36,971 nucleotides of DNA from an uncultured Pseudomonadota bacterium (GTDB lineage: Bacteria; Myxococcota_A; Polyangia; Nannocystales; Nannocystaceae), in contig CAJXVA010000033.1 in assembly GCA_913061055.1 (NCBI GenBank), forward strand, positions 1-36,971. The letters run 5' to 3'. How positions within the stretch are numbered: position 1 is the stretch's first letter; the number at the start of each line of letters is the position of its first letter. A model generated the notes under the pieces. That model was not told the DNA's origin. It saw only the letters and a list, made by a program, of their open reading frames with translations, and did not search any database. The translations under genes and the position numbers were made by a program. Shown piece by piece: positions 2,482-29,144 of this stretch.

Positions 2482-5400
2482 TCAGCTGACCTGGACGCCG
2501 ATCGCACGGCGAGCAGCGAAGTAGTCCTCGCTGATGCTGTAGAGCACGAGCTCCTTGATCTTGTCGCGAGGACCCATCGCGGAGCCGAGCTGAGCCTGCT
2601 CCTGCGAGATCATCTGACCGGCGATGCGCAGGTCGTGGCAGAGCAACAGGCCGACGCGGTAGCTGGTCAGCTCGACGGCTGCGGCCCAGCGTTTGACGTC
2701 GGTCGATCCCCCCGCATCCACGAACTTCTGGATGAGGCTGCGGAGGCGGTCCAGCGCAGCAGGCTGCATGCGGCTGGTGATCTCGCGCGCGATTTGGTCG
2801 AGCGCGGTGTTGTTCTCTCCGACCTGCATGCCGACCGCACGCAGACATGCCAGGAACACCTGCTTGAGGTTCTGCGGCGTGCGGTCGAGCGCGACGTAGC
2901 AGAAGTGCGGCAAGTAGAGGTCCATCATGTGCCGACCCAGCGCGAACGCGAGGTGCGACTCGGACTTGCCGCGCAGGAGGTTCTGGAACACGACCATCGA
3001 CGGGTGGATGGCGTTGTTGCGCTTGAAGTTCATCAGCTTCAAGTCGCCGGGGTCGCTCGGACGCAGGAACACGTCCGGCTTGGAGACGTTGAGAACGTCC
3101 TTGGTGTACTTCGCCATCCGCGAGAACAGCGACGGGTCGATCTCGACGTCGATCACCTCGGTCGGGTTGAGCGTGGCGGGCAGGTCCACTGCGCGCCATG
3201 CCGCCACCGCCGGTGCGATGAGTCCCAGGATTCCGGTCAGGTACAGGTCCTGGTCGGGGTGGAACACGTGGCGACGGAGCGTCTCTTCGCTGAGCCGCTG
3301 CCGTGCCATGACGAAGTCGCCGCGCTTGTTCTGCTCGGCGTAGGCGTCCTCTTCGGGCGTCGCCTTCTTGAGGAAGCTGAGCACCGAAGCCACGCAGTAC
3401 GCTTTGTCCACGGCGTTGGCACGCACGTAGATGTTGAACAGCGCGTGGTAGCTCTCGTAGCGGAACGGCTCGCTTGCGATCAGGATCTGATGCTCGCGCA
3501 CCGCCTGGTCGACGTACTCCGTCGGGTTGTCGCCCATGAGCCGCTCGTAGAGCTCGGCCAGCTTGATGTGGCGTCCGACGTCGTCGGGGTCGAGCTTCGA
3601 GGCGACCTCGAATGCCGCAGCGGCGGACTTGTAGTCCTGCATCCGAGACCGATAGATCTCGGCCAGGTTGCTCCACAGCGTGACCTTGAGCGGCTCGTTG
3701 CCCTCTTGCGGAAGGCGCTTGAGCATCTTGCGGTAGGACCGCTCCAAGGTCTTCCACTCGCGCTCCTTGGTGAGCATCGTGTCGATCGCCTGGAACGCCT
3801 TGAGCATGCCCGGGTCGTCGTCCAACACCTGGTTGAACCGGTCGATGGCGTCGGCAGAGCTTCCCAGCTCGTCGCGCATGAGGACGGCCGCGGTGTAGTT
3901 GTAGCGACTGCGACGACGGACGTCGGTCTCGATCTCTACGAGCCGGTCAATGACCGAGATCGCGTCGTCCCAACGCTTGGCGTTGGTGTAGAGGTCGAGC
4001 AACGTGTGCAGCGTCGGGTAGTCCTCGGGCCGCAGGTCGAGTGCCGACTGATACGCCGACGCCGACTTGTCGCGGTTGCCGAGCTTCTCGACGTACAGCT
4101 CACCGATGTCTTTCCACAGACCGAACTGCGCGTCCGGGTCGGGGGTGATGTCGACCAGTGCTCGCTTGGCTTCGATGACGCCTTCCCAGTCGTTCGCCTG
4201 CGCACGCAGGTTGATGACGGAGACCAGCGTCTCGTTGTGGTGCGGATCCACTTCGAGAGCCTTCTCGAAGTAGTTCAGCGCCTTGCGAGGCTCGCTCTGG
4301 CGATTCTTGATCGTTCCAAGGCGGTGGTAGACGCGGACCGTGTCCTCGTCGGCCTGGGTGTCGCGATGCTGGACCAGGATGGTCTGGTACAGCTTGAACG
4401 AACGATCCCAGTCTTCCTTCTCGAACAGAAGGTCCGCCATCCCGACCAACACTTCGTGGTCGGTGGAGTCGATGTCGTAGGCGCGCTTGTACTGCTTGAG
4501 CGCCTTGTCGATGTTGCCCAGTCGGCGAGCCACGCGGGCCGCCTGCACGAACATCTGCTTCTGCCCGTCGTCGTCCAGCTCGAGCTGGTCGACCTTGCGG
4601 GTCAGCATGTCGAGGACGGGGTCCGCCGCCTGCCAGTTCTCTTCCTCGGCGTACACCTCGGCGAGCACCGAACCCACCCGCACATGCTCGGGATCGTTTT
4701 GCAGGGTCTTGGCGAACAGCTCGACCGCGTGTCCTCGGTCCTCGAGTTCCTCGTAGTTGATGAACGCGGCCTCAGCGGCCAGGTTCGTCCGCTCGAGAGC
4801 GTTCTGCGAGTACTCCGAAGCCGCTTCCAGGGTGCGCGAGGCCTTGAGCCAGTCGGCACGCTGCTTGTAGATGTCGGCGAGCAGGATGAGCGCGGGCACG
4901 TGGCCGGGCTCGACGGTGAGCGCCTGGTTCAGGCGCATCTCCGCTTCCTCGCTGTTCATCAGCTTCTCGTGCTGCACCCGACCGATACGGGTCAGCAGCT
5001 CGATGCGGCGGTTGGGGTCGGGCGTGAGCTCGACCAGTCGGCCCATCGTCTCGACCGCGCGCGGCCAGTCCTCCATCGCTTCCTGGAGGCGAGACAGCGT
5101 GTTGGCAGCTTCGAAGTTGTTCGGATCGATCTCGAGGATCTCCTCGTACGTCTCGATCGCCCGATCAACATCCTCGACCTGCTTCTCGAAGACCTCTCCC
5201 ATTGCGGAGAGGAGCTCGATCTGCAGCGCCGGCTCTTCGGTGGATTGGATGTGCGAGCGGTACGTCTCGACCAACTCGGTCCACTTCTCGAGACCCATGT
5301 ACAGCTCCTCGAGCTGCCGGTAGGTCACGTCACGCTGGGGGTCCAGCATGATGATCTTCTCGAGCACTTCGGCTGCCCGATCACGATCGCCAGAGAGCGA

Positions 5401-8400
5401 GACCAGGGCGTTGGCCATCTTGTCGTAGATGGCCACCTGCTCCTCGACGTCCGCCGTCGCGTCGAGCTCGGCTTCGAGGATCTCCAGGTACTCGGGGATC
5501 TGGCTGCCGTTGAGGTAGAGCCGCTCGAGCGCCTGCAGAGCGTCGAAGTCGGTGGGCTCCTGAGCAAGGATGTCCTTGTAGGTTTCCACCGCCGCGCCGT
5601 TGTCCGCCAGGTTGGCTTCTTGGACGTAGCCGATGTGCTTGCGAAGTCGCAGGCCCTCGTCGGGGTCTTCGGCGATCGCCGCCCGCCGGTCGAGCACGCC
5701 GACCAGTTCCGACCACGACTGCTGCTGCTCGTGCAGCCGGATGAGCGCGTCCAGGGCGGTCGCGCTCTCGGAGTCGATCTCCAGCACGCGCCGGTAGGAC
5801 TCCACCGCGCCGGGCACGTTCGCCAGGCGCTGCTCCTGCACATCAGCCAGGGACAGCAGCGTTGCCGTCTGCCGCTCGGGCTCCGGCTCTTGTTGCACGA
5901 GTCGCTCTTGGGTCTCCGCCAGCTCGTCCCACGACTCTGAACGGGTCTGGAAGTTCACCAGCTCACGCAGCGCCGAGACGCTCTCGGGGTTGAGCTCGAG
6001 AGCCTTCTCCAGCGACTGGATGCCGTACTCGGCGTGATTGAGATGCTCGCCGTACCAGCGGCCGATCTTCACCCAGAGCTCGCAGCGCTCGTTGGGGTCT
6101 TCGATCTGTAGGACCAGCTCGTTGTACTCGTTGAGCAGCTCTGTCCACTTGCCGTGCTCGGTCGCGAGGCGCTCGAGTTCACGTGCGGTGTGGTCGTTGG
6201 CGTAGTCGACGTTGAACGCAGCCTGCAGCGTCGCAAAGGCCATGTCCGAGTCACCGAGGTGCTCTTCGAAGACGTTCGCAGCGTTTTGGAGTGCGGCCAC
6301 GCGGCTGTCGTTGTCCTCGAGCACCTCGGCACGGTTGATGAGCAACTCGCCCAACGAACCGAAGTCCTCGGTGTCCCGATAGATCTGCTCGAGGGCCTCA
6401 CCCGCCGGAGCGTGCCCGAGGTCGTTCTCGAGAATCTCCTGGTATGCGCCCGCCGCCTGGTTTTGGTCCTCCAAGCGCTCCTCCCAGATCGATGCGATCT
6501 GCATGAGGACGTCGATCTTCTCGTCGCCTTCGAGGACCTTGGTCTTTTGCTCGAGGATGTTGATCGCGTCGTTCCAGCGCGCCTCTTGCGTGTACAGGGC
6601 CTCGAGCGCCGCGAGGGCTTCCATGTTGCCCGGCTCCATGTGGAGAACCGAGTGCCAGGACTCGATCGCCTGGTCGGGCTGCATCAAGTACTCGCCGTGG
6701 ATACGGCCGGACTTCGCGTGAAGGTCCTGCAGCTCGTCCTGGCCGATGACGTGGGGACCCTGAGCGATGAGGCTCTCGACCACCTGGATGAGCTCGACCC
6801 ACGCCTGCGAGTCCTCGTAGATGCGGTGAAGCGCCTGGAGGGTCTCGAGGTTGTTCGGATCGAGGTCCAGCGCGTTGAGCCACGCATCGAGTGCGTTTCG
6901 ATCACGCTCGAGCTTGCCACCGTAGACACGGCCCAAGGTCTGATACGCGTCCACGCGAGTCTGCGCGTCCTCGATCACGAAGACCTGACGCTCGAGAATC
7001 TCGACCAGGTCGTCCCATCGTTCGTGGGACTCGTGCAGCGCAGCCAACTCACCCAGTGCGAGCGGGTCCTCGCCGCGCAGGTCCAACACGCGGTTCCAAA
7101 GATCGATGGCATCGGTCTCGCGATCCAGCGTGTCGGAGGCGAGCTTCGCCATCCGCTGGTAGCAATCCGCGGTGTCTTCGTCCGTGTTCGCGACGTCGAC
7201 CGTCTTTTGATAGACGTCGAACAGCTCTTCCCACTTGTGTTGGTGAAGGTAGAGCGTCTCCAGGCGTCCCAACGCCGTCGCGTTCGCGGGGTCGTTCTCG
7301 AGTGCCCGGGTGTACGCGGCAACGGCCTGCTCGTGGTTGTGCAGGTCGCGTTCGAACGTCTCGGCCAACCGAACCTCGAGGTCGACGAGTTCCTCGCCGT
7401 CCATCGTGATGCGGATGCGACGTTGGAGGATCTCAGCGAGGTCCTGGGCCATCCCCAGCTGGCTGTAGATGCGGTCCAGAGCGGCAAGCGCCTCGGTGTT
7501 CTCAGCGTCGAGCTCGAGGACAGCACGGTAGGCTTCGATCGCCCGGCCGCCATCGCCCAATCGCTCGTCCAGCACCTTCGCGCTGCGCATCAAAACGCCC
7601 TGCTTCACCTCAGGAGGCTGCTCCTCCTCAAGGATCTGCGCGCCGACGTCGACGATGTGTCCCCACTCGCCGGTCTGCTCAGCCAGCCGATCGAGCTCTT
7701 CGTGTACCTGCTCGCTGGACGGGTCGTCGATGTACGCCCGCAGCCACCAGATGTACGCGTCGCCGGGGCTGCCGAGGCGGTGCTCGCAGATCTCGGCCAC
7801 GTTTTGGATGATCGCGAGCCGCTCGTGCTGGTCCTCGGTCGCTCCGAGCTTCACCTCGCCAAGCTTCACGAGTGCGTCCCAGCGCTCGGCAGCTTGATAG
7901 ATGGGCTCGAGGATCTCGGCGATCTCGCTCTGGTGTTCACCGCTGGTGAAGATCAGCTCGAGCGCCTGCAGCGTCTGCTCGTGTGCCGGGTCGATGTTGA
8001 GGATCTCGCGATAGGCTTCGATGGCCTTCGCGGATTCGTTCATCTGGACCTGGTAGGTCTGGCCCATCCGGAAGTAGAGCGCGATCAGGTCGTGCTCATC
8101 GCCGGTGATGGCGACCTGGCGGCGCAGGTTCTCGACCAACTCCGGCCACTTCTCGGTGTGCGTGAAGATCCGATCCAGCGCACCGATTGCAGCGACGTCC
8201 TCGGGGTCGTTGTCGAGGACCTCGAGGTAGCGACCCACAGCGTCATCGACATTGGCCAGGCGCTCTTCCTGAATCCGCGCGAGGCGGGAGAGCATCTGCG
8301 TCTTGGCGTGCGGATCGAGGAGTTTGTCGGCTTGCTCTGAAAGCAGCGCCGCGAACTTGTCCCAGTCGCCCGTCACCTCAGCGAGGCGCTCGAGCTGCTC

Positions 8401-11400
8401 GACGGTGAGCTCCGACTTGGGATCCGTTGCGAGCGCACGCGCGTACGCATCGAATGCCTTATCAAACTCGGAGAGCTGAAGTTCGTAGATGCCCGCCACC
8501 TGGTGGAGCCGCTCGATCTTGCCGACCGGGTCCTCGGTGTGTTCGACCATCACCTCGTAGATTTCGACCAGCTTCTCCCACTCGGAGAACTGCTCGTATC
8601 GCGGCGCCAACACCTGGGCGGCCGCCATGGGCTCGTTGTCCCCATGCGCGATGCGCTGCAGCGCTTCGATGGTGGGCTCGTGCGCGGGATCGTGCACGAG
8701 GACCTCGCGGTACGCCTCGATCGCCCGAACCATGTCGGCGAGCTGGTTTTCCCAGAGCTGACCGATTCGGTACCGAAGCGCGGTTTGTTCCTCGGCGGTG
8801 TCGAACGCATCGACTGCCCGCTCCAGGATCTGATGTTGGTCGAGCCATCGCTCGGCCTGGCCGTAGAGACGGTCGAGAGCCTGAATCGCCTGCGGGTCGC
8901 CGGGCTCGATGTCCAGGACAGCCTGATACGTGTCGATCGCACGATCGGTGTCCTTGAGCTCGGCGTCGTAGACCTGCCCCAGCACGTACAGCGCCTGTCG
9001 CCGGTCGTCCGGGTCGTCGGCAAGCTCGCTCTTGCGCTGGTAGACGTCGCGCAGCGGCTCCCACCGCTCGAGCTGAACGTACAGACGCTCGAGTGCCTCG
9101 AGTGCCTCACCATCCGAGTCGTCGATCGTCAGCACCCGCTGGTACAGCTCGATCGCGCCCTCGGCATCCTCCATGACGCCTTCGCGAATGCTCGCCGCGT
9201 AGGCCAGCATCTTCTTTTGGTCGTCGGAGTCCTCGACCATCTCGGCCTTCCGAACAACCGCGGCCACGAGCGGCTCGAAGTTGTTGGTGCGTCGATGGAC
9301 CTCGATCAGAGAGTCGACGGCTTCGAAGTTTGCCGGGTCCGCCTCGAGCATCTTCTCGTAGGTGGCGGCGGCGCTCGTCGAGTCGTCGATCGCCGTCTCG
9401 TAGGTCCGGGCGACCTTGCCGAGGATGGCCAAGCGAAGCTGGTCGTCGACCACGTCGTCGACCACGCCCTCGTAGAGCCCCACCATCTCGGAGAACGCCC
9501 CCATCTGGTTGGCGAGGTTGTCGAGGCGCGCCTGCGTGTCTTCGCGGCTTGGGTCCTCCTTGAGGGCCCGTCCGAACGCATCGAACGCCTTCTCCGGCTC
9601 GTCGCCGGCCAGCTCGTACAGCTCACCGATCTGGTGAAGGAGCTGGATCTTCTCACTCGGCTCGATCGAGTGCTTGACCATGATCTCGTACGCCGCGATC
9701 AACTTGGTCCAGTCGTTGCTGGCCTTGTAGATGGGCTCGAGAATCTTGGCGACGGAGAGCTGGTGTTCCTCGTCTTCGAGCAACGTCTCGAGGGCTTCGA
9801 GTGCCGACTCGTTGACGGGGTCGAACTCCAACACCCGGTTGTAGGTCTCAACCGCAAGTGCCGGCTGGCTCAGCTTCTTGAGCTGGAGAGACCCCAGGCG
9901 CAAGTTGAGCTCGATCTGCTCCGACGGATCTGCGGTGAGCGCGAGCTGACGGCTGAGGTTCTCGGCCAGCTCGGTCCACTGCTCGGCGTCGAGGTAGAGA
10001 CGATCGAGCGCCGTGATCGCACGCGTGTTGATGTCGTCGTCCGCGAGGATCTCGTTGTAGGTGACGATTCCGTCCGCGGGGCGACTGAGCATGTCGACCT
10101 GCAGGTGTGCGATCTTGAAGCGAAGCTCCTCGCGGGTGTGCGGATCGTTCTCGAGCTCGACCTTGCTTCGATAGACATCGAGCAGCTGGTCCCAGTTCTG
10201 GTCCCGGGAATAGAGGGCCTCGAGCGCATCGAGGGACCCAGCGTCGCCGGGATCGATGTCGACGGCACGCTGGTAGCACGCGATCGACTTTTCGCTGTCG
10301 CCAAGCTGCTGGTCGTAGAGCGTCGCGAGACGCGTCAGCAACCGACGCATGAGACCGCTTTCGAGGTCCTTCGAGACGGCCTCCTCGTGGAGGTCGGCGA
10401 AGTCCTGCCACCGGTCTTCGACCGTGGCGATGTTCTCGAGCGACTGCGCAGCGACCTCGTTGTCGGGCTGCTCGCGGAAGGCACGTGCGTACACGTCGAA
10501 TGCCCGCGTGCTGTCCCCCATCGAGTGGGACAGCAGCTCGCCGATTCGGAGCAACAGGTCGACCCGGGACTGGCTGTCCTCGGCGGCGTCAGCCTGGATC
10601 TGCAGGCACTGGACCTGCTCGGCATGGGCCTCCATCGCCTCGTAGATCGGCAGCAGGATGCCGGCGACCTTCACCCGAAGCTCGGCGCGCTCCGCCGACT
10701 CTTCAGCGACCTCGCCCGTTTCTTCGTCGGTCTCATCATTCGCTTGGGGAAGCTCCAGCCAACCTTCGAGTCGATCGCGGGCCGAGTCGCTGGCCGGATC
10801 GATTTCGAGAACCTGACGATAGAGTTCGACGGCTTCTTCCGGCTTCTCGAGCCGGTCCTGCATGATGACGCCCAGGCGCAGCAGGTACTCCGCGCGCGCG
10901 TCCGCATCCTCTTCGGACGCGACGCTGAGCTCGCGCTCGAGAACCCCAGAGAGGTCCTCCCAGCGCTCGAGGTTGCTGTAGATCCGGTCGAGAGCCGAAA
11001 GGACCTCGGGGTCCTCGACGCCCGAATCCAACACAGCGTTGTAGGCCTCGATGGCTTTGTCGTGGTGTCCGAGCTGCTCGTGGATCGAACCGATCCGGGT
11101 CTGCGTCGCTCGCTTCTCGTCCTCGTCGGAGGACAACGACAGCTTGGTGTCGAGCACGGCTAGCAGATCCTCCTCGCGACCCAGCGCGAGGTAGAGACGC
11201 TCCAGAGACGCAAGAGCGGTGGGCTCTTCGGCGTCGATCTCGACGATGGCCTGGTTCACCGCCAGTGCCGCGTCGAGATCAGCCATGTGCTGCTCGTTGA
11301 TCTCGGCCAGCTTCAGCCGCAGTGGCAGGCTGTCCGCCTCTTCGCCGTACTCCTTGATCGCCAACTCGAGCGACTGCGCGAGCGGCTGCCACTGGTTGGT

Positions 11401-14816: not shown

Positions 14817-15725
14817 CTAGATCACGTCCTGCATCCGGGCGATCGTGCTGTTGGCGGCCTTTTTCAGGTGCTCAGGAACGTCGTTGCCGGCCTTGGAGAG
14901 GAATCCCTGGAGGGCTTCCACCGCTTCGTTTCGTTGACGGAGGTCCGCATACGCCATGCCGAGGCCGAACAGGACGTCCGGCATGTCCGGGTCGATGGCC
15001 TTGGCGGTCTTGAACGAATCGACGGCTTCCTTGGGCTTGTTGAGGGCCCGCTGGGCTCGGCCGAGGCCGTTCCACATGTCGGCATCTTTGTCGTTCACCT
15101 TGACACCGGTCTCCAGAACCGCTTGGCCAACGTTGGCGTGGCCGTAGTCGATGTACATGTTGCCGAGGGAGACGAACGACGCGCTGAAGTTCGCGTTGAG
15201 CTCGATGGCCTTCCGGAACGCCGAGTCGGCCTGCACCGGGTTGTCGAGTCGCTCGTAGAGCACGCCCATGCGGTAGCTCGCCTGGTAGTGGTTCGGGTCG
15301 AGCTTGAGCGTCTCCTGATACTTGGTGATCGCCTCTTTGTACTTCGCTTCTTTGTCGGCTTGCGCCGCGCCGGCCTGCTCGCCCTGGGCTGCAGTCACAA
15401 CACCGAGCTTGAAGATGTAGTTGGCGTCGGGCGCATCGCCCATGTTCTCGACGGCATCCTCAAACGCCTTCGCAGCGTCCACCAGCTTGCTTTGCTTCTG
15501 GTAGACGAGCCCAAGCGTGTAGTGAGCCTTGGAGTGCGTCGGGTCGATCTCGATCGCTTCTTTGAGGTAGCGCTCTGCCGACGAGGTGTTGCCCTTCTTC
15601 TCCGCCTTGATGCCTTCGTTCATCCGGTTGGTGGACTGGACGCGCTGGCGACTCGCCAACTGACAGCCGGGCGCGACTGCGACAACGGGAACGGACAACG
15701 CGAGGAGGAGGAGGATGCTGCGCAT
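14817..15725 (-). CDS. TPR-repeat lipoprotein
   Basis: 302 residues from ATG at 15725. Longer in-frame starts were set aside because this one gives a clean lipoprotein signal (MRSILLLLALSVPVVAVAPGC, lipidated Cys at residue 21). Five or six TPR units follow, with typical AxxxxxxALxxDP spacing: for example YLKEAIEIDPTHSKAHYTLG, YQETLKLDPNHYQASYRMG and FRKAIELNANFSASFVSLG. The general form is that of NlpI/PilF-type TPR lipoproteins. It is probably anchored in a membrane facing the periplasm and acts as an assembly or docking factor. It sits between the FHA/AgmX-PglI gene and the giant TPR gene, where M. xanthus has gltH (an outer-membrane barrel, as I recall). It is isolated by a terminator upstream (16074-16101) and has a candidate promoter of its own. 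Confidence 0.85.
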   Translation of the reverse strand: MRSILLLLALSVPVVAVAPGCQLASRQRVQSTNRMNEGIKAEKKGNTSSAERYLKEAIEIDPTHSKAHYTLGLVYQKQSKLVDAAKAFEDAVENMGDAPDANYIFKLGVVTAAQGEQAGAAQADKEAKYKEAITKYQETLKLDPNHYQASYRMGVLYERLDNPVQADSAFRKAIELNANFSASFVSLGNMYIDYGHANVGQAVLETGVKVNDKDADMWNGLGRAQRALNKPKEAVDSFKTAKAIDPDMPDVLFGLGMAYADLRQRNEAVEALQGFLSKAGNDVPEHLKKAANSTIARMQDVI

Positions 15726-16101: not shown

Positions 16102-16119
16102 CTCTTCGAAGACCCTAAA

Positions 16120-18459: not shown

Positions 18460-18744
18460 CTAGATATCGAACGAGAGCGAGATGAGCTCGGAGATGAAGT
18501 GTGGCCGGATCGTGATCAGGCTGGCGTGCTTCACGCGGGCGCGGGAGTTCACGTTGGCACCGTCCGGGCTGAGGATCTCACCGTCGACGTTGTCATCATC
18601 GAAGTCGTAGACCGTCGTGTCGCCGCCTTCGACGCGTGCGGCCGAGTCAGCGTCTCCGTCGTTGCCAGGAGCAGCAACCGCGGTGGATGCAGCCGCCATG
18701 GACAGAGCGAGGGTCGTGGTGATGGCGAGGAGCTTTGCGCGCAT
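18460..18744 (-). CDS. Small exported protein of unknown function
   Basis: 94 residues from ATG at 18744, which has an excellent GAAGGAAG ribosome binding site. The longer frame upstream is rejected. Signal peptide at about 1-24 (MRAKLLAITTTLALSMAA then AVA|AP), an acidic middle (TVYDFDDDNVDGEILSPDG) and a C-terminal segment KHASLITIRPHFISELI. I recall similar small myxobacterial proteins with a DFDDD...G-x-x-x-PDG centre and a SLIxIRxxF tail, but know no function for them. It lies between the second TPR lipoprotein and the FHA protein, the slot of gltF in M. xanthus. Similarity to GltF itself is not established. It probably acts in the periplasm. Confidence 0.85.
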   Translation of the reverse strand: MRAKLLAITTTLALSMAAASTAVAAPGNDGDADSAARVEGGDTTVYDFDDDNVDGEILSPDGANVNSRARVKHASLITIRPHFISELISLSFDI

Positions 18745-19097: not shown

Positions 19098-20450
19098 TCA
19101 GCGGTTGGCGCCGGCCTCTTCGTCCAGGGCCTGCTTCGCACTGCGCTCCAACTCCAGCAGCTCCTCCCGTCGAGCCTCGAGTTCCGCGCGATGCAGCGCT
19201 TCGAGTTTCGCGGCATCGGCCTCGAGTTGGTGCTGCACCCCGATGAAGCTGGCGTACTCGACGAGGTTTGCCATGCGGTGATGGGCCTCGGCCACCGCGT
19301 CGGAGTACTGCGGGTCCTTTCGGGCCATCTTCGTGAAGCGCTCGAAGTAGGCGGTGGCGGTCTCCCCTTCGGGCACACCATCGCCGTCGGACTGCGGGGC
19401 AACGTGCTCCTGGTACAGCACGCCTGCGTTGTACAGCGGCCGAGGATCGGCTCCGTTCAACTCGAACGCCTTGGCGTATTCCTGCTCGGCCGCGGAGAAG
19501 TCACGGGTTCCTCGCTTCGCGACACCGAGCGCGAGCGCGGCCTCGTATTTTCGGGCTCCGGTCCCCAGTCCCTGCGCGACCTCGAGGTTCTCTTCGGCCG
19601 ACGCAAAGTTTCGCAGCTCGAGTTCGAGCAGTGCCGCGTTGAGTCGCGCATCAACATGCTGCGGGTCGAGGTCGATCGCTTTCTCGAACGCTCGGAGGGC
19701 GCGCGTTGGTTCTTCGCCCTGAAGCGCAAGCAAGCCTTGAATGTTCCACAGCTCCGCCGAGGTCCGGCCCGTAGCCGTCGCACGTCGGTGCGCTTGCGTG
19801 ACCACGAGGTCCGCAAGCAGTGCATACGAACGGTCACCCGCGACCGCCCGTTCGTAGTACAGGCGCGCCAGTCCTTCGTACGCGGTGAGATTGTCGCTAT
19901 CGAGCGCGAGCACGGCCTGCAGGCTCCGCTGTGCCTCGTCAAAGTCGGCGACGTTCCCCGACTCCAAGTACCGCGCGCGATAGACATGCGCGAGGTTGAA
20001 CCACGGTGGAAGCGGGCGCCCCCGCCCCCTGTAGGCGCGGCGGTACAGCCGAATCGCCTCGTCCGTTTGGCCGTCGCGATACGCAATGGAGCCGAGGTTG
20101 TTGTAAGCGAGCCCGAAGTTCGGGTCGAGGCGCACCACGTCCGAGTAGGCCGCCTTCGCTTGCTCGGACGTCCCGCACATCTCGAGCGCGACCCCGGCAT
20201 TGAACCGATGCTCGACGTCGCCGGTCAGTGCAAACGCCCGGTCGAACGCAGCGACGTGTCTGCGGCAGGTCTTTGCATCGAGGGTGCCAGCGGCTCGCGC
20301 TCGCTCGAAGGAGCCCGCGGGGTCTTCCAGCTCTCGAGCCGTCGGACACGGCTCGGGACAGGCCGTCTGGGCGCCCCGTTGTCCGACACCACCGCTGACG
20401 CACCCCATCACGCCTGCACATACCCAGCCGACCCAAACCCACCGTCGCAT
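19098..20450 (-). CDS. TPR lipoprotein, second copy of the GltE-like gene
   Basis: 450 residues from ATG at 20450. Lipoprotein signal MRRWVWVGWVCAGVMGC, lipidated Cys17. TPR units run to about residue 390 (for example YSDVVRLDPNFGLAYNNLG and FEKAIDLDPQHVDARLNAA), followed by a charged Glu/Ala/Arg coiled-coil tail. It is clearly a paralogue of the protein at 21911-23341: both have YNNLG, LARLYYxR, LLADLVVTQ, DPRPLYNxGVLYQ, then a PxSDGDG loop and a YSDxVAxA helix. The copies have diverged strongly, so the duplication is old. It is probably a periplasm-facing outer- or inner-membrane lipoprotein. It starts 58 bases after the hydrolase gene ends, so the two are likely co-transcribed. Confidence 0.88.
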   Translation of the reverse strand: MRRWVWVGWVCAGVMGCVSGGVGQRGAQTACPEPCPTARELEDPAGSFERARAAGTLDAKTCRRHVAAFDRAFALTGDVEHRFNAGVALEMCGTSEQAKAAYSDVVRLDPNFGLAYNNLGSIAYRDGQTDEAIRLYRRAYRGRGRPLPPWFNLAHVYRARYLESGNVADFDEAQRSLQAVLALDSDNLTAYEGLARLYYERAVAGDRSYALLADLVVTQAHRRATATGRTSAELWNIQGLLALQGEEPTRALRAFEKAIDLDPQHVDARLNAALLELELRNFASAEENLEVAQGLGTGARKYEAALALGVAKRGTRDFSAAEQEYAKAFELNGADPRPLYNAGVLYQEHVAPQSDGDGVPEGETATAYFERFTKMARKDPQYSDAVAEAHHRMANLVEYASFIGVQHQLEADAAKLEALHRAELEARREELLELERSAKQALDEEAGANR

Positions 20451-20508
20451 GCTCCATTGCACGACGAGGTTGCACGCGGGTTCCCACGGTTTCGAGAAAA
20501 CGAGAGCG

Positions 20509-21777
20509 CTACTCGAAGAGGGCTTCGGCCACATCCGGGTAGGCGGTCTGGATGACCTCGAGGTTCTCGGTGCCAACGCTCGAGCAATGCAGCGTCTCCT
20601 CGAACGCGGCGGACGTTGCGTACTCCACGATCGCCCAGCCGGTCTCGTCCGTGAGCAAGTCGTCGCTGCACTGAAACAAGAATCCTGCAGCCGCAGCGCC
20701 GCAAACCCCGGTCTCCTCGGCGATCTCCAGCAGGTTCTGCCCTGCGGTGTTCGACGCGGTACAGATCTCCGAGGGCACCAAGTGACCGGCGTTCGTGATG
20801 CCGATCAGGCGCTTGGGGGACGCGGACGCTGCGTAGCCGTTTTGCAGGTTGCCGTAGGCCACCACGGAGTCCGCCGTTCCACCGAGGATCAGCGAGGACT
20901 CCAAAGCTTCTCCGCCGCCAACGGTGGGGCCTGCCGACAGCGGCACAATCACGCGAGCGTCGTCAGCGTACGGGCCGACAGCCCCGCCTCCGGCGGAATG
21001 CCCGGTCATGCCGATACGGTCGGCGTCCATCACCGGGGCCAGGTCTACGAGTTCATCGGTCTCCCCGCGAACGGCAGCGAGCATCGCCTGCACATCGGAG
21101 TCGAGGTCTCGCGGCGCCGCTTCCCCGCCACACAGCGGGGCCAAAATATCCCGGAGCATCAGGCCGGGGTGATCGGCGGTGAGCACCACAAAACCCCGGC
21201 TGGCCCAGTGCGTGAGATGCCGAAGAGACTGCGTGCGCCACCCAGCGGTCCCATGCACGAACACGATCACCGGGTACGGACCGAATGCGTCGTCGACCGG
21301 AAGGTCTCGGCCGCAGTCGCAGATCTGCCAAGGGTTCTGCTCGTCGCTGATCTTGGCAGCCTCATCAGGAGGCAACGCGTCGCGGATGTCGAACCGAACC
21401 GGGTCCCCGCTCGGCGACTCCGCAGCGGGATAGAACACCTCGACCGTGAGGTCGTCGATGGTCACAGTGCGGGTGCCCACCGGCCACGGGCCACGCACAG
21501 CGGTGTCGTTGGGCTTCGCTCGCATCACCGCCCCCTCGCATGCGTCTGCGTTCTGGTCGTCGGGCAGCCCGGTCGTAGAACCGCTCGTGGTGTCTCCGGA
21601 GCTCGAGTCCGCGGACATCTCCGAGATCGGGCCCGAACTCGACCCGGTCGAGGCTCCTCCGGTGTCGCTCTCGCCCGCGGTTGTCGATGCCTCGGTTTCC
21701 GTGGCGGACGAGGCCGCGCCATCGTCCCCGCACGCGAAGCTCAGAAAGACACTGGAGACGAGCAACCATCGAGGCAT
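20509..21777 (-). CDS. Alpha/beta-hydrolase lipoprotein (PAF-acetylhydrolase/dienelactone-hydrolase type)
   Basis: 422 residues from ATG at 21777. Lipoprotein signal MPRWLLVSSVFLSFAC (Cys16) followed by about 65 residues rich in Ser, Thr, Gly, Glu and Asp, a linker style common in Nannocystaceae lipoproteins. The alpha/beta-hydrolase fold shows an oxyanion-hole region VIVFVHGTAGW, the nucleophile elbow GHSAGG (Ser at about 261), a likely acid in GGTADSVV (Asp about 302) and the base in NAGHLV (His about 332). Such proteins hydrolyse ester or lipid substrates; the substrate here is unknown. Six or more Cys in the C-terminal part suggest disulfides, which fits an exported location. The gene interrupts two paralogous TPR lipoprotein genes and is isolated upstream by the terminator at 21854-21886. 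Confidence 0.88.
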   Translation of the reverse strand: MPRWLLVSSVFLSFACGDDGAASSATETEASTTAGESDTGGASTGSSSGPISEMSADSSSGDTTSGSTTGLPDDQNADACEGAVMRAKPNDTAVRGPWPVGTRTVTIDDLTVEVFYPAAESPSGDPVRFDIRDALPPDEAAKISDEQNPWQICDCGRDLPVDDAFGPYPVIVFVHGTAGWRTQSLRHLTHWASRGFVVLTADHPGLMLRDILAPLCGGEAAPRDLDSDVQAMLAAVRGETDELVDLAPVMDADRIGMTGHSAGGGAVGPYADDARVIVPLSAGPTVGGGEALESSLILGGTADSVVAYGNLQNGYAASASPKRLIGITNAGHLVPSEICTASNTAGQNLLEIAEETGVCGAAAAGFLFQCSDDLLTDETGWAIVEYATSAAFEETLHCSSVGTENLEVIQTAYPDVAEALFE

Positions 21778-21910: not shown

Positions 21911-23341
21911 CTATTCCTTCTTTTCGGCGGGCTTGTCCGCCGGCGGCGCAGCAGCGGCGGCGGATGCCCCAGCAGCAGCGTCGCGAGCCTTCTTCTCGAG
22001 GTCGAGAAGTCGCTTCCGCTCTTCAGCTTCTTGCTTCTTCTGGATCTCCTCGAGCTTCTTGGCTTCAGCCTCGAGCTTCTTCATCTCCTCGAGGTCTTTT
22101 TTGTACTGCTCGATGTTCTCGATGCGCTGTTTCGCATCGGCAACGATGTCGGAGTACTCCTTGTCGCCACCAGCCTTGCTGATGAACTTGCTGAAGAACC
22201 CCTTGGCGGTGTTGTTCTCCTTGATTCCATCACCGTCGCTGTTGGGACCGATGTGGCCCTGGTACAGCACGCCAAGGTTGTAGAGCGGACGCGGGTCCTT
22301 GCCGCTCATGTCCATCGCCTTCTTGAACGACTTCTCGGCGTCCTTGTACTTGCGAAGGCCACGCTGAGCGACGCCCAGTCCGAGGAAGGTCTCGACGTTC
22401 TTCTTCTGACGCGAGTCCTTCAGCGCGATGTTGAGGCTCTTCTCTGCCTGCGCGTAGTCGCGGAAGCGGATGGAGATCATCGCGATGTTCATGTGCGCGT
22501 CGGCGTGGTCGGGCTTGATGCTCGCCGCCTTGGTGAACGCCTTGAGGGCGTCGACCTGGTTCTCACGCTCCATGAAGATGAGGCCCTTGATGTTGTAGAT
22601 GTCGGGGCTCTCGACGCCCGTCTCTGAGAACACCCGCAGGGACTGCGTGACGACCAGGTCGGCAAGCAGGATGTACGACTTGTCCTTGAGACGACCGCGG
22701 TCGTAGTACAGACGCGCCAGGTTCTCGTAGGCGAGCTGGTTGGACGAGTCGACCGCGAGGACCGTCTGAAGGTTCCGCTCCGCCTTGGAGAAGTCGTCAG
22801 ACTTGGGATCGCTGGAGTACTTGTCCCGAAGCGCCGCCGCGAGGTTGTTCCGCGGCGCCTTGGTCTTGGGGTTCGCTTCCACGGCCCGCTTGAAGTAGTC
22901 GAGCGCTTTGCTCTCCTTCTTACGGTTCCAGTAGATGACGCCCAGGTTGTTGTAGGCGAGGTCGAACTTCGGCTCTTTCTTGATGATCGCTTCGTAGATC
23001 TTCTCGGCCTCCTCCGTCTTGCCGCACTCCTCGAGTACAGCACCGGAGTTGAACCAAGCGATCGTCATCTGGGAGCCGTACTCCTTGTAGACCTTGGCGA
23101 AGTCCTTCGAGAAGGACTCGCACTGCCCAGCGCTGAGCTTGCCCGACGCCTTGGCTTTGTCGTAGCGAGCGCCGACGTCCCCGAAGGCCTTCTTGGCCTC
23201 GGCCGAAGCCTTGGAGGGATCGGTTGCAGCCCCGGCCGTGCCCGCGGGCGCTTGGGTGTCGGGGTTCTTCTTCTTGCAGCCAGCGGCGGTGGTCAGCGCC
23301 AGCGAGAGTGCGATGAATCCGAAGATGTTTTGGATACGCAT
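21911..23341 (-). CDS. TPR lipoprotein (GltE/AglT-like)
   Basis: 476 residues from ATG at 23341, with GAGGA nine bases upstream. Lipoprotein signal MRIQNIFGFIALSLALTTAAGC (Cys22). TPR units span about 85-370, then a PNSDGDG loop, then a long Glu/Lys coiled coil (about 395-450) and an Ala/Pro/Lys tail. The DxDGD-like loop could bind calcium, which is inference. The start is 30 bases after the stop of the large exported TPR gene, so the two form an operon. In M. xanthus the pair gltD-gltE (AgmU and the TPR lipoprotein AglT) is arranged the same way. I infer a periplasmic or outer-membrane-anchored component of a Glt-like envelope complex. A paralogue lies at 19098-20450. Confidence 0.9.
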   Translation of the reverse strand: MRIQNIFGFIALSLALTTAAGCKKKNPDTQAPAGTAGAATDPSKASAEAKKAFGDVGARYDKAKASGKLSAGQCESFSKDFAKVYKEYGSQMTIAWFNSGAVLEECGKTEEAEKIYEAIIKKEPKFDLAYNNLGVIYWNRKKESKALDYFKRAVEANPKTKAPRNNLAAALRDKYSSDPKSDDFSKAERNLQTVLAVDSSNQLAYENLARLYYDRGRLKDKSYILLADLVVTQSLRVFSETGVESPDIYNIKGLIFMERENQVDALKAFTKAASIKPDHADAHMNIAMISIRFRDYAQAEKSLNIALKDSRQKKNVETFLGLGVAQRGLRKYKDAEKSFKKAMDMSGKDPRPLYNLGVLYQGHIGPNSDGDGIKENNTAKGFFSKFISKAGGDKEYSDIVADAKQRIENIEQYKKDLEEMKKLEAEAKKLEEIQKKQEAEERKRLLDLEKKARDAAAGASAAAAAPPADKPAEKKE

Positions 23342-23371: not shown

Positions 23372-26300
23372 CTAGAGGCCCTCTTCGGAGGCCCCTTCTT
23401 CGGACTTGGCAGGCTGCTTCTTCGCCTTGGGCTTCTCGCCGTCGAGCGAGGTCTGAACGCCAACGACGTCCAGGCGGCTGTCGGTGTAGACCGACGTTCC
23501 GAACAGCTCCTCGGTGGCCGGGAACTTCTCCGGGTCACGCTGCTGAAGCTCGGCCTCACACATGCGGCTGAACTCGTTGAAGAACTGGAACTCGGTGGAC
23601 CGCTCGAGGCAGTAGGTGAATGCGTCGTTCGCAAGCTTCTGAGGCATGGCAGCCTGGTCAGCGAGCGCATCGCAGTAGGCGAAGACCTGGTCCTCGACCT
23701 TGAAGCTGCGTGGCACCTCGGCGCGGTACAGCTGGTCTGCGAAGTTCTGCATCGAGATGGCCGAACGAGCAGCGGCAGCGAGGACCCAGTACGGGCTCTG
23801 CGAGGTCTTCACCTTCGCGTAGCGCTCCTGGAGTTCCTTGGCGACGGAGACCTTTTTGTCGAAGAACTCTTTGAATCGCTTCTTCGAGTCCTGCGCGGTC
23901 TTCATCTGCTCTTTGTACTCGCGCTCCCACTTGGGAAGGCCCGAGTCCTTCTTCCACTCCTCGACGGTGAAGTCGAGACCGGCAGGCATGACGTTCTGCA
24001 GGTACTCCTCGTACTTCTGGTCGGCGGAGTAGACCATCGACATGCCGACGGCGTTCTTGTAGGCCTCGACGCGCTCGACCTCTTCGGCCGGCATCTTGGG
24101 CTTCTTGCCCGACAGCTTCAGCGCGGTCGAGAAGTGGCCCTGTGCCTGCTTGGCCTTCTTGCCGTCCCGAGCGTGCACGGTGACGATGCCCTGGGTCGGG
24201 TTTCCGCAGTACTTCGGCAGGTCGTTCTTCTTCTTCTTGGCCTTGCGGCGAAGCTTCCGAGCCTTCTCTTTGACGTCCTTACCTGCGTTCGCCTTCTCGC
24301 GTTTGATGCTGATGCAGCTGTCGAACAGGAGGGACTTGGAGCAGGACTGGCGCCAGAGGATCTGGCCGATGGCCGCTTCGGCGACGACGCGCCGGTCGAC
24401 GCCGCCTTTGGTGCCGTAGCGAGAGACGAACTCACGTGCGTGCGAGAGCTTCTCGTCTTCGTTGTCCAGAAGCTCGTGCTTGGACCAGAAGATCTTGGCC
24501 GCGGTGCTCGGGTCCTTCTTGCGATACAGACCCTCGAACTTGCCGAGGTTGGACTGGGCTTTCTCTTCGTTGCCAAGGCCCAGACGGAACAGGTACGCGT
24601 TCTGGAGGGCTTCGGGTGTGAAGTCGTCCTTGGTGTACTTGTCGGCGTACTGCTCGTAGCGATCCGCCGCGTCGGAGTAGTAGGCAACCGCCTGGTAGTT
24701 CTGCCCGAGCTCGCGCAGCGTCTGCTGGTAGTGCTCGGAGTCCGTGTGCGCATCGAGTAGCGCGCTACGGATCTTGATGGCCTTACCGACGAGGAATGCA
24801 GCCTCGTAGCAGCGAGCGGCGTTGAAGAGCAGCGTGTCAGCGCGCTCGTGATCTTCGTGGTCGTTGTAGACTTGGACGAAGGTCTCGGCACAGTTGACGT
24901 ACCCCTCGGGGTCGCCGGCCTTGCCCTGCTCCTGGTAGGCCATCGCCTTCTTCCAGCCGATGCCCGCGAGGTATCCCGGGACCGCTTCGCGGATACGGGA
25001 CGACTCGGCGTGCTTCCACAGCTTCATCTTCTGAAGGTCGGTGGCCCACTTCTCGAGCTCGTCGGACGTCTTGACGGTCTGCTCGGGAGTGTTGTCCTTG
25101 TCGGTCCAACGGATGACCAGCAAGTCGATGAGCATCTCCGCAGCCCATGCTGCGTAGACCTGACCGTCGAACTTCTTGACGATCTCTTTGAGGACCGGCT
25201 CGGCCTCATCGAACTTGTTGTGGATCATCATCAGCTTGGCGCGGTGGTACTGGATCTTCGGAAGCTCCTTGTCCTTCGCGTCCTTCACGTACTTCTGATA
25301 GATGTCGTACGCGCCGAGCATCGCGGCTTCGTTGTCGGTGTAGTCCGACTCCGGGAACTCCTGCGCCTTGTCGGTCGCAGTGTCCTTGTCGCGATTCTTC
25401 TTCTTGACCTTTTTGTCTCGGTAGACGCAGACGCCTTCCGAGTTGGTCTTGCAGGCCTTCTTCTTGCCGCCGGTCTCGTCGTACTCGAGGGCGTTCTTCA
25501 TCGCCAGCATCTGGGCGTATGCGGCGTCCTTCGTGTACTTGCCGTCAGGCTTGATCTCGAGAACCTTCACGAACTCGTCGTGCGCGTTGCGGAAGTGCTT
25601 GAGGCCAACTTCCTGCTGGTCGCGGTTCTTCGAGTTGTAGTTGTTCGCCCCCTGCGCCCACAGCAGCTCTGCAAAGTAGAACTGCATCTCATAGGCGTCC
25701 TTGTCCTTGGGGAAGTGCGTCGTGAACGAACGGTACGCCTTCTCGGACAGGTCGTAGGTGCCCGGCAGTCGAGTCTTCTCAGCCTCGTCGTGCCAAACGG
25801 TGGCCATCTGACGCATCGTGTCGCGAGCTTCGTCGCGGCACTTCTTCTTGGTGGCCTTCTTGAACTTGGAGCTCTTGTACTCCTCCCAGTAGTTGGCGAG
25901 ACGGTCGGTCTCTTTCCACTGAATGGTCTTGTTGTCGGTCGCGAGCGCGTTGACAACGACCTGGGCTTGCCACTCACAGCGCGCGGAGTCTGAGCCGAAC
26001 TCGGACTGCAGCGTCTTGTAGATCGAGCTCGACTCGACGTACTTACCGTTGCCGAAGTAGGCGTTGGCCAGAAGCTCCATCTGCTTCTTGGCCATGTTTT
26101 CTTCCTTCTTGGGGCCGTTGCCGACCTTCTGGAAGAAGCCCCATGCGGCGGACGGCTTGCCTGCGTTGACGTAGGCCTTGACCATGTCGCGGCGAGCGTC
26201 GCGGCGCAGCTGCTTGGCGTTGGCTTCGCTACCGGCTTTGCCGGCCATCGTCGCCTTCACGGTGCGCACGAAGTAGTCGAGGCTGGTGCGGTACGAAGGC

Positions 26301-27178
26301 TCGGCGGTGCCGATCGGGTTGAGGTGACACCACCCGATTTTGTACAGCGCGTACGCGAAGACCGGGCTGTCGGGATAGCCGTCGACGATCTTCTGGTAGA
26401 GCTGAAGCGCCTCGTCGATCTTGTTGTTGCCGTACTTGAAGTCCGCGAAGCTGAGGTAGGCGTTCGGGATGTACTTCGAGGTGGGGTAGTCGCGGATGAG
26501 GCGCAGGTAGGCGTCCTGCATCTCGGCGTCCCGCCCGAGTTGGCCGAGCTCGAACGCGTAGAAGTAGATCGCCTCGTCGAGGCGCTTGTACTTGGCGAAC
26601 GCCTTGGCGTTGACCAGAGCTTTGTAGATCTTGACCGCGTCGGCCGAGGCCTGCTTGCTGCCCTTCTCAAACTTCTTCTGGCTGGCCTTGAGCTGGTTCG
26701 CCTTGGCCGTTTGGCCGGCTTCCTCAGCTGCGTAGATCTTCTCGTAGAGCGTGCCGGCCTGGAGGTCGAAGTAGGCCTTCTTGTCGAGGTAGTGATCCGC
26801 AAGCCGGAACAGGAGGTCCGGATACTCGGGATCGGTCGACTCGGATGCGTTGAGCAGGCGCTTGAGCGTGCCGATCTGCTTGTCGGCGATCTCCTGCGCG
26901 ACGGCTTCCTTCTGACGAGCGAAGGAGGCAGCGTCCATCATCTGGACCTTCTTCTTCTTGTCCTTCTCGGCAGCCTTCTGCTTCTTCTTGAACTTGGTGT
27001 CGAGCGTGTTCTTGGCCTTGACCTTGCCCGATTTGCGCTCGTAGCGAACGCTGTCGTCGCCGCCTGCATCCTGGGCGAACGCCGTCGTGGGCACGCTGAG
27101 CATCATCATGCCCATGACCCCAGTCATGATGCCGATCGCGAGCGGCGAACGGCGGTACTTGTTGTTGTTGGACGACAT
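23372..27178 (-). CDS. Large exported TPR protein (GltD/AgmU-like)
   Basis: 1268 residues. ATG at 27178 (MSSNNNKYRRS) has AGAGG a few bases upstream; the frame continues to 27484 but lacks coding character there. Signal peptide at about 1-34 ending TAFA|QD. A very basic segment (KFKKKQKAAEKDKKKK) follows, then many degenerate TPR units over about 95-1000, such as YLRLIRDYPTSKYIPNAYLS and YQKIVDGYPDSPVFAYALYK, in the YfgC/BamD-like style that binds unfolded or partner proteins. The C-terminal 250 residues are charged and end in a Lys/Glu-rich tail. The length is close to what I recall for AgmU/GltD (about 1,200 residues). It is probably a periplasmic scaffold. It shares an operon with the TPR lipoprotein 30 bases downstream. 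Orthology is not proven. Confidence 0.9.
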   Translation of the reverse strand: MSSNNNKYRRSPLAIGIMTGVMGMMMLSVPTTAFAQDAGGDDSVRYERKSGKVKAKNTLDTKFKKKQKAAEKDKKKKVQMMDAASFARQKEAVAQEIADKQIGTLKRLLNASESTDPEYPDLLFRLADHYLDKKAYFDLQAGTLYEKIYAAEEAGQTAKANQLKASQKKFEKGSKQASADAVKIYKALVNAKAFAKYKRLDEAIYFYAFELGQLGRDAEMQDAYLRLIRDYPTSKYIPNAYLSFADFKYGNNKIDEALQLYQKIVDGYPDSPVFAYALYKIGWCHLNPIGTAEPSYRTSLDYFVRTVKATMAGKAGSEANAKQLRRDARRDMVKAYVNAGKPSAAWGFFQKVGNGPKKEENMAKKQMELLANAYFGNGKYVESSSIYKTLQSEFGSDSARCEWQAQVVVNALATDNKTIQWKETDRLANYWEEYKSSKFKKATKKKCRDEARDTMRQMATVWHDEAEKTRLPGTYDLSEKAYRSFTTHFPKDKDAYEMQFYFAELLWAQGANNYNSKNRDQQEVGLKHFRNAHDEFVKVLEIKPDGKYTKDAAYAQMLAMKNALEYDETGGKKKACKTNSEGVCVYRDKKVKKKNRDKDTATDKAQEFPESDYTDNEAAMLGAYDIYQKYVKDAKDKELPKIQYHRAKLMMIHNKFDEAEPVLKEIVKKFDGQVYAAWAAEMLIDLLVIRWTDKDNTPEQTVKTSDELEKWATDLQKMKLWKHAESSRIREAVPGYLAGIGWKKAMAYQEQGKAGDPEGYVNCAETFVQVYNDHEDHERADTLLFNAARCYEAAFLVGKAIKIRSALLDAHTDSEHYQQTLRELGQNYQAVAYYSDAADRYEQYADKYTKDDFTPEALQNAYLFRLGLGNEEKAQSNLGKFEGLYRKKDPSTAAKIFWSKHELLDNEDEKLSHAREFVSRYGTKGGVDRRVVAEAAIGQILWRQSCSKSLLFDSCISIKREKANAGKDVKEKARKLRRKAKKKKNDLPKYCGNPTQGIVTVHARDGKKAKQAQGHFSTALKLSGKKPKMPAEEVERVEAYKNAVGMSMVYSADQKYEEYLQNVMPAGLDFTVEEWKKDSGLPKWEREYKEQMKTAQDSKKRFKEFFDKKVSVAKELQERYAKVKTSQSPYWVLAAAARSAISMQNFADQLYRAEVPRSFKVEDQVFAYCDALADQAAMPQKLANDAFTYCLERSTEFQFFNEFSRMCEAELQQRDPEKFPATEELFGTSVYTDSRLDVVGVQTSLDGEKPKAKKQPAKSEEGASEEGL

Positions 27179-27268: not shown

Positions 27269-27344
27269 TGGTTTGGCCCGAGAAAAGTTCCCAGGCCGAG
27301 TGAGCCGGGCCCCGTGCGCGCGACGGGAGCCGACTCGAGTAGAC

Positions 27345-29144
27345 TCATTCTTTGCAGAGACTGGTGACTTCGTAGCGGTAGAAGCCGAGCTCGTCCTGCC
27401 AGTATTCGCCGTTGTAGTTGTAGATCTCGTGCTCGGAGTCGATCTCAGGCTTCTGAGGTTTGGGAGGCACGGCTTCGAGCTCACCTTGCTCTTTGCGCTT
27501 CTCCTGAATCTCGTACTCGACCTTGATCATCTCTTTGTTGAGGTTCTTGATCTCTTTGATCTGCTTGGTGATCCGCGTCCGGGCCTCGGCACCAGTCCGC
27601 TCCTTCGCAGCTGAAGCCGCGAGGTCGAGATCCTCTGTGACGCGCTCACCGACACCGCTGGAGATGAACTCGCCGCTCATCTCCTCGAGCAGCACCTGCT
27701 CACGCTCGAGCTCCTCGACGTACAAGAAGTACTTCGAGAGCGTCTTATCCTCGAGCGCCTTCTGGGCGACCTTCTCGACGAACGGATCCAGGCCGGACTC
27801 GTCGTTGAGGATCTTCCGGGACAGCTCGAAGAGCTCGAAGTCCTCGGGGGCCGAGTCGAGGATCCCGCGCAGCTCTTTCATCGTCTCCGGGTAGCGGCGT
27901 TCGAACTCGTCGACGGTACGCTTCGCGGAGTCGTAGCGGCAGTTGAAGTAGTACGTGACCGCCTTGAGCTTCAGGGCGTCCGGGTACAGGTAGTCGTAGA
28001 AGAACGGCGCGTTGAGCGTGTGCACGTAGCCCAGCGTCCGCTGGTAGTGGCTGTTCGCGTTCGCGTCGTCGACCTCGACCTTGCGGAACTCGGCCCAAGC
28101 AGCCCAGTGCACGCCGTCGAGGAAGTACTTGGAGGACAGGTCGATCTGGTCGAGGTACTTCGTCGCCGTGTCGAACTTGCCCACCATGTAGAAGATGTTG
28201 GCGAGGCCCAAGGACGCGAGGTCCTGGTACTGCTTCATCTCGTCTTCGAAGGTGACCTCGAAGCTGGTCTTGTCCTTGCGCTTGCGCTTGCCCTTGTTCT
28301 TCTTGGCCTTGGCGCGCTTCTCTTTGCGCAGCTTCTTCTTGTTGGCCTTCTTGTTGGCAGCAGCGGCGTCACGAAGCTCGACCGAGCGGCGGATGACCTG
28401 CTTGAATGCGTCCACGGCGGGCTCGCCCTTGAAGTCGCGGGTGTGCGCGACGCCCAGGAAGAACTGCGACGGGATGTAGTAGTCGGAGTTCTTGGGGACC
28501 TGCTCGAGAAGTGCGATCGACTGCGGGAGATCGCCCTTCTGGTAGTGGAAGCGACCCAGCAGGTAGTACAGCTCGTCACGCACCTCGTCGAAGTCCTCGT
28601 CTTCGAGGTCGGTGGGCTTGTACGTACCGATCTTCTGCAGCACCTCGGCGCCCTCGGGCAGCTCGCGAGAGAGCGAGGCAAGCCAGGGAAGGGTCAGCTT
28701 GTGGAACGGGTGCGACGGACCGGCCTGGACGATCTCGTCGAAGACGGAGAGCGAAGCCGAGTAGAACTCGAGCTTGTACAGCGCCTTGCCGAGCCAGTAC
28801 TGAGCGCGAGGCTGGTCTCCGGGAATCTCTCCCGCCGAAACTTTGTAGAACTGAATCGCGGAAGCCTGGAAGTCCTCCGCCTTGTAGAGGGCTTCGCCTT
28901 GAGCGTTAGATCCACCGGCGGTGGCGGATGGTGCTGGCGCTGCGGGCGGCGGAGGCGGAGCACCGGCATCGGGAGCCGGCGGCGCACCACCATCCGCGGG
29001 ACCACCAGGATCCGGCGGCGGCGGCGGTCCATCGAAGGACGCGCTCGCGCTCGTCGCCGAGAAGGCGAGAGCAAGGCCCAGCATGATGCTGAGGCGAGAG
29101 GACAAGAGGGACGCCGTGTGCCTGCGCGAGGTCTTCTTGGACAT
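27345..29144 (-). CDS. Exported TPR protein with basic insert (possibly GltC-like)
   Basis: 599 residues from ATG at 29144; the frame open to 29528 is not coding-like. Signal peptide at about 1-37 (LGLALAFSATSASA|S), a Pro/Gly/Ala linker to about 80, TPR-type helices (about 85-250, again about 290-450), and a striking Lys/Arg run at about 259-290 (codons at 28276-28370). Near 520-555 is a coiled coil (KQIKEIKNLNKEMIKVEYE), and the C-terminus has YNGEYWQDELGFYRYEV. The role is probably periplasmic scaffolding in the same complex as the TPR proteins downstream. M. xanthus GltC is a periplasmic TPR protein of similar size, but I cannot confirm homology by eye. It is the first gene of the - strand block and has a structured leader upstream. 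Confidence 0.88.
   Translation of the reverse strand: MSKKTSRRHTASLLSSRLSIMLGLALAFSATSASASFDGPPPPPDPGGPADGGAPPAPDAGAPPPPPAAPAPSATAGGSNAQGEALYKAEDFQASAIQFYKVSAGEIPGDQPRAQYWLGKALYKLEFYSASLSVFDEIVQAGPSHPFHKLTLPWLASLSRELPEGAEVLQKIGTYKPTDLEDEDFDEVRDELYYLLGRFHYQKGDLPQSIALLEQVPKNSDYYIPSQFFLGVAHTRDFKGEPAVDAFKQVIRRSVELRDAAAANKKANKKKLRKEKRAKAKKNKGKRKRKDKTSFEVTFEDEMKQYQDLASLGLANIFYMVGKFDTATKYLDQIDLSSKYFLDGVHWAAWAEFRKVEVDDANANSHYQRTLGYVHTLNAPFFYDYLYPDALKLKAVTYYFNCRYDSAKRTVDEFERRYPETMKELRGILDSAPEDFELFELSRKILNDESGLDPFVEKVAQKALEDKTLSKYFLYVEELEREQVLLEEMSGEFISSGVGERVTEDLDLAASAAKERTGAEARTRITKQIKEIKNLNKEMIKVEYEIQEKRKEQGELEAVPPKPQKPEIDSEHEIYNYNGEYWQDELGFYRYEVTSLCKE

Follow-up and report, generated by a model that had tools for sequence, protein, structure and literature searches.

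The window analysed here, a stretch of 36,971 nt corresponding to contig C33 of a fragmented MAG (10.65 Mb, 89% complete), carries a genuine gliding-machine (Glt) cluster in its standard gene order, with a small lineage-specific insertion. The closest named relatives of the MAG are Nannocystaceae, together with other myxobacterial MAGs; as the assembly is incomplete and fragmented, missing genes carry little meaning. The initial annotation had taken the locus for the Glt machine of a distant myxobacterium, and NCBIfam matches for GltC, E, F and G, synteny and the Nannocystaceae-like character of the MAG all bear this out.

The locus

The cluster spans 29144 to 2482 on the minus strand, with nine genes for proteins of 599, 1268, 476, ~422, ~450, 94, 723, 302 and 4002 aa; the nine same-strand genes first described, with their features, are all found there. 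The exported proteins bear signal peptides or lipoboxes. Starts for the hydrolase (ATG 21777) and gltE2 (ATG 20450) are best guesses. The features are as follows.

27345..29144, minus strand: gltC, exported periplasmic TPR protein, 599 aa (NCBIfam GltC, NF033756)
23372..27178, minus strand: putative gltD-type gene, large exported TPR protein, 1268 aa (size, position, cross-family profile)
21911..23341, minus strand: gltE, TPR lipoprotein, 476 aa (NCBIfam GltE, NF033758; lipobox AAGC)
20509..21777, minus strand: inserted alpha/beta-hydrolase lipoprotein gene (GHSAG nucleophile motif; Pfam PAF-AH_p_II)
19098..20450, minus strand: gltE2, second GltE-type TPR lipoprotein (NCBIfam GltE match)
18460..18744, minus strand: gltF (CglF), small exported protein, 94 aa (NCBIfam CglF, NF033764)
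16120..18291, minus strand: gltG, FHA, TM and TonB/AgmX-PglI C-terminal domain, 723 aa (NCBIfam GltG, NF033760)
17446..17706, minus strand: extra transmembrane hairpin of GltG, residues ~196-282 (insertion by GltG comparison)
14817..15725, minus strand: tprL, TPR lipoprotein, 302 aa, encoded between gltG and the gltI-type gene (conserved position)
2482..14490, minus strand: putative gltI-type gene, giant cytoplasmic TPR protein, 4002 aa (homologous C-terminus in other giants)
12933..13271, minus strand: low-complexity linker within the giant TPR protein, rich in Glu, Ala and Pro (tandem repeats, translation)
2482..3318, minus strand: non-TPR domain at the C-terminus of the giant protein (resembles M48 peptidases, lacks HExxH)

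Identification of the cluster proteins

M. xanthus was compared through NCBIfam profiles and published descriptions. The GltC model NF033756 matches the product of the first gene at E=1.4e-64 (219 bits, below the curated cut-off); the initial annotation rightly called it an exported TPR protein, and missed its specific identity as the GltC that heads the cluster. The GltE model NF033758 matches the 476-aa lipoprotein (E=6.4e-30, residues 15-442) and also the ~450-aa lipoprotein gltE2 (E=1.5e-20), in agreement with the suggested duplication of gltE. The 94-aa protein is matched at E=1.7e-17 by the model for CglF (NF033764), which is GltF (PMC4488436). The GltG model NF033760 matches the 723-aa FHA protein end to end (E=8e-107), and the C-terminus of this protein exceeds the myxo_SS_tail cut-off; its FHA domain, three hydrophobic segments and AgmX/PglI C-terminal domain are seen as first reported. 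None of the window proteins reaches a curated full-length NCBIfam cut-off. The GltG cut-off is reached by 0 of 284 Myxococcota genomes, and the GltJ cut-off by 0 of 106; because none of the 284 genomes reaches the former, the NCBIfam cut-offs seem to fit only close relatives of M. xanthus.

The profile search that had been proposed for the cluster proteins thus places GltC, both GltE proteins, GltF and GltG, and gives no curated GltD or GltI match for the 1268-aa and 4002-aa proteins. In M. xanthus GltD has 1191 aa and lies beside gltE, and GltI has 4132 aa and no signal peptide (PMC3169522). A GltD-type profile built from relatives picks out the gltE neighbour in every cluster, at 297-709 bits for other families, and scores 120 bits on the paralogous cluster of genome G108. 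By size, position and cross-phylum homology the 1268-aa protein is probably GltD-type. The 4002-aa protein, in which no TM segment was found, as expected of the cytoplasmic protein first proposed, is probably GltI-type by size, position, absence of TM segments and a shared C-terminal domain.

G108 served as a control, with a cluster of the window's order (GltC 415, GltE 151, CglF 82 and GltG 400 bits) and a paralogous cluster (GltC 176, GltE 56 and CglF 40 bits) in which a GltJ-type protein replaces GltG and the order is VWA-like protein, outer-membrane barrel, C, D, E, F, J. A Cys-rich lipoprotein encoded upstream in the window was considered as CglC/GltK and set aside, having no profile match.

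Gene order across Myxococcota

Genes were called with a simple codon-usage caller in seven named loci and in the clusters of thirteen genomes. Two of these coincide (G100 with L016 and G095 with L018, the same contigs as judged by length) and were counted once. In addition to that of the window this gives 18 clusters, which belong to more than one class and to several families. All 18 read gltC-gltD-gltE-(gltF)-gltG; where the sequence continues, a gene for a TPR lipoprotein of ~300 aa and then the giant TPR gene follow. The sequence of L018/G095 stops at gltG, and gltF is uncalled in G013 and G233. Many clusters adjoin rplS, trmD, rimM, a KH protein gene and rpsP, like the window.

The common pattern is thus a cluster that opens with gltC and has a TPR lipoprotein gene ahead of the giant one, and the gltC-headed C-D-E-F-G-TPR lipoprotein-giant TPR cluster is the usual Myxococcota arrangement. 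The initial annotation had called for a synteny comparison across the phylum, which yields the same order in the 18 other clusters and so overturns its own claim that the genes are arranged differently. The order headed by gltC is probably ancestral in Myxococcota, in line with the ancestral form of the apparatus first considered, and since it is the usual one the split clusters of M. xanthus are probably derived. Luciano et al. 2011 (PMC3169522) reported that Anaeromyxobacter has its homologues of the M. xanthus clusters G1 and G2 in one group and that Plesiocystis has Glt genes.

An unrelated operon of TPR lipoproteins might appear Glt-like through general TPR resemblance, and the TPR-only matches (the GltE model, tprL) do score against many TPR families too. 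However, specific matches are obtained outside the TPR regions, with GltF/CglF, with the full length of GltG and with the C-terminal half of GltC, and synteny throughout the phylum opposes chance resemblance. Synteny, together with the matches to GltF and GltG, in effect refutes this explanation, which we regard as extremely improbable, and we treat the locus as a Glt cluster in what follows.

The TPR lipoprotein and the end of the giant protein

Every inspected cluster whose sequence extends far enough has tprL at this position, after gltG and before the giant TPR gene. This makes it a regular component of the cluster that the published Glt list does not include, and not a replacement of gltH, as had been supposed; the gaps flanking it measure 394 and 326 bases and leave no room for gltH. 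In M. xanthus the gap between gltH and gltI holds MXAN_4864/65 (agmV), which were hit by a transposon and set aside as probably not real genes (PMC3169522).

The giant proteins of 19 other genomes, read to their ends, have 3350-4216 aa and a C-terminus homologous to that of the window protein, whose last 278 residues are non-TPR. An AlphaFold model of this domain, from an alignment of 20 sequences, has a pLDDT of 91. In Foldseek its highest-ranking PDB structure is Ste24, at prob 0.80 yet an E of only 0.06, and the related ZMPSTE24 is found too; when the whole 402-aa tail is used, TPR matches dominate. With hhalign the domain aligns to a profile of 18 M48 peptidases at a score of 28.3 (P=2.4e-5, probability 51%), in register across the active-site helix; among the controls, the scores of seven unrelated profiles do not exceed 11.3 and those of 40 column shuffles 10.7. 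The HExxH motif is found in no member of the domain family, and Pfam holds no family for the domain. The predicted fold and the profile alignment give moderate support to a dead M48-type domain at the end of the giant protein, which likely serves for docking. The conserved M48-like end of GltI-type proteins is a new observation.

We tentatively suggest that every Myxococcota Glt machine of the window's type contains two unlisted parts, a TPR lipoprotein encoded between gltG and gltI, in M. xanthus in the place of MXAN_4864/65 (agmV), and a dead M48 docking domain ending GltI. The conserved lipoprotein and the pseudo-peptidase domain would be machine parts that can be tested genetically.

Lineage-specific features

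The hydrolase lipoprotein matches Pfam PAF-AH_p_II at 2.7e-5. Among the clusters inspected, only those of the window and of its closest relative, L012, have the hydrolase gene and gltE2 inserted between gltE and gltF; G223 has a separate gltE duplicate of its own. GltE2 groups outside the Nannocystaceae gltE clade, and is 56% identical between window and L012, against 89% for gltE. In the same comparison dS is 1.2 for the hydrolase and 1.7 for gltE2 against 0.43-0.77 for their neighbours, and dN/dS is 0.17 and 0.22, respectively; from these values both genes appear constrained, with a different history. The two genes are an addition specific to the lineage. Their fast evolution could be taken as a sign that the locus is a decaying, non-working remnant of the machine, but all frames are intact and the glt genes show purifying selection against L012 (dN/dS 0.10-0.13), and we consider decay most implausible.

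The TM segments of the window GltG lie at residues 205-223, 259-277 and 402-420, so that two extra TM helices precede the cytoplasmic beta domain, whereas a single TM helix is described for M. xanthus GltG (PMC5349195). The extra hairpin is an insertion in Nannocystaceae GltG and in that of G077, from one other family; it is absent from seven GltG of other families, each with one TM helix. GltG topology is a variable feature. No GltG relative outside the FHA domain was found in the PDB.

Partner genes elsewhere in the genome

MglA and MglB are certainly encoded in the genome, side by side on contig C455; the 195-aa MglA matches the M. xanthus structure at E=1.3e-105. These two proteins also serve type IV pili, a point against the Agl-Glt reading. 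The N-terminus of a GltJ-type protein, with a zinc ribbon and a match to NF033761 (1.8e-23), lies at the end of C584 and is cut by the contig end. C6 carries two adjacent OMP_myx_plus barrels, one above cut-off, which are GltA/GltB candidates by domain make-up, not orthology.

TolQ-TolR-TolR triads occur on C423, C438 and C144. The C423 triad keeps both proton-site Asp residues, has TonB-like AgmX-tail proteins encoded upstream and is the best candidate for an AglRQS-type motor, again by domain make-up rather than orthology. With the GltJ-type protein on C584, it agrees with the expectation that gltJ and the motor genes lie elsewhere. The C144 motor is ruled out as the partner, since it belongs to a second complete core system on C308 and C144 (GltC-, D- and E-like proteins, TolQRR and a GltG-like protein), whose parts are joined in relatives. 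The C438 motor is less likely, and probably belongs to a TonB system, because a gene for an apparent TonB-dependent receptor comes next.

Proposed mechanism

The locus very probably encodes the envelope-spanning part, from cytoplasm to periplasm, of an Agl-Glt machine, and by analogy we lean towards gliding motility as its output. To the observed parts and order we fit a mechanism modelled on M. xanthus Agl-Glt (PMC5349195, PMC4488436), for which we infer the identities of motor and barrels and the gliding output. A proton-driven TolQ-TolR-TolR motor encoded elsewhere (C423 being the best candidate) would drive GltG, with its FHA domain in the cytoplasm and its TonB-like C-terminus crossing the peptidoglycan. 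That C-terminus would contact the periplasmic TPR proteins (GltC, D, E and TprL) and outer-membrane barrels (the C6 candidates), and the surface would be moved through the action of GltG on these periplasmic and outer-membrane parts. The GltI-type giant would be a cytoplasmic scaffold, its dead M48-type end probably binding a partner without cutting, and MglA/MglB would set direction.

The same kind of machine might instead do another surface job, such as moving coat polysaccharide, as Nfs does in spores. Nfs and Glt are paralogous with one motor in common (PMC3858216), for several of the copies in M. xanthus the role is either unknown or other than motility (PMC3169522), and the window cluster holds no barrel or motor gene. 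Yet Nfs has no GltI paralogue, while the window cluster has a GltI-type gene and the genome a GltJ-type protein and MglA/MglB. We judge this other output less likely than gliding, which remains our preferred reading; nor do these proteins and the barrel and motor candidates point to the possibly non-gliding apparatus of the initial annotation.

Comparison with known systems

The Agl-Glt genes of M. xanthus form clusters G1 (gltD-J) and G2 (gltK, B, A, C) in Luciano et al. 2011 (PMC3169522), where the cluster that the initial annotation named G2 is G1. The window shares with them GltC, E, F and G homologues by profile, the putative D- and I-type giants and the relative order D-E-F-G-...-I. It differs in being gltC-headed, in having no gltH or gltJ in the cluster, in the TPR lipoprotein that occupies the place of gltH and the discarded MXAN_4864/65, in the two additional TM helices of GltG and in the inserted hydrolase and second GltE.

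The Nfs system of M. xanthus sporulation (nfsA-H) lacks GltI, J and K (PMC3858216). Both have C-D-E-F-G in a single run, with D putative in the window, but Nfs has A, B and H in its cluster and no GltI paralogue, and the window the opposite. An Nfs-type assignment is ruled out by the giant TPR gene and by the lack of A/B/H or barrel genes in the cluster.

The ancestral 7-gene core complex consists of gltC, D, E and G with aglRQS at one locus (PMC3169522). The window cluster shares C, E, G and the putative D with this core but has no motor genes, and has GltF- and GltI-type genes in addition; the second system of this genome, on C308 and C144, is closer to the ancestral core than the window cluster is.

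Hydrolase lipoprotein and gltE2

The inserted hydrolase lipoprotein gene and gltE2 (window 19098-21777) are shared with a close relative, L012, from which their synonymous divergence is ∼2–3 times that of the adjoining genes; this difference in divergence suggests that the block has had a history unlike that of its neighbours.

Cluster ends and flanking genes

The giant TPR protein ends in an M48 metallopeptidase-like domain without HExxH (window 2482-3318), kept in 20 sequences. Divergent from gltC lies a gene for a Cys-rich lipoprotein, which is kept close to gltC across Nannocystaceae and matches no family in Pfam or NCBIfam.

Genes flanking the glt cluster (minus strand)
29831-30466, divergent from gltC: Cys-rich lipoprotein
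210-1280, strand opposite to the cluster, past its end: PilT-type ATPase

GltG paralogues and further clusters

The Gly-rich and AgmX/PglI C-terminal region of GltG recurs, at 58–77% identity, in many otherwise dissimilar proteins. Some relatives have an extra GltG paralogue placed between gltG and the TPR lipoprotein gene, and the window genome has a pair of adjacent paralogues on a different contig. This genome also carries a second core system, complete as A'-C'-D'-E'-x-TolQ-TolR-TolR-G' and adjoining rplU-rpmA-obg; in all copies seen, Asn stands in place of the proton-site Asp in one of the two TolR proteins. In G108, which has one cluster in the window order, the paralogous cluster is a single run of genes for a VWA-like protein, an OMP_myx_plus barrel and GltC-, D-, E-, F- and GltJ-type proteins.

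Paralogous loci
L013 12548-14473; L014 9922-12066; L016 12470-14449: second GltG paralogue in relatives
L030 (C190) 11108-14814: adjacent GltG paralogues, window genome
G000 contigs C322, C51, C23, C35, C154, C4 and others: proteins with the GltG-like C-terminal region
L038 (C308) 1-7776 and L048 (C144) 395-5172: second core system, window genome
L150, L151, L152, L160: second core system, further loci
L111 5362-16577: G108 paralogous cluster
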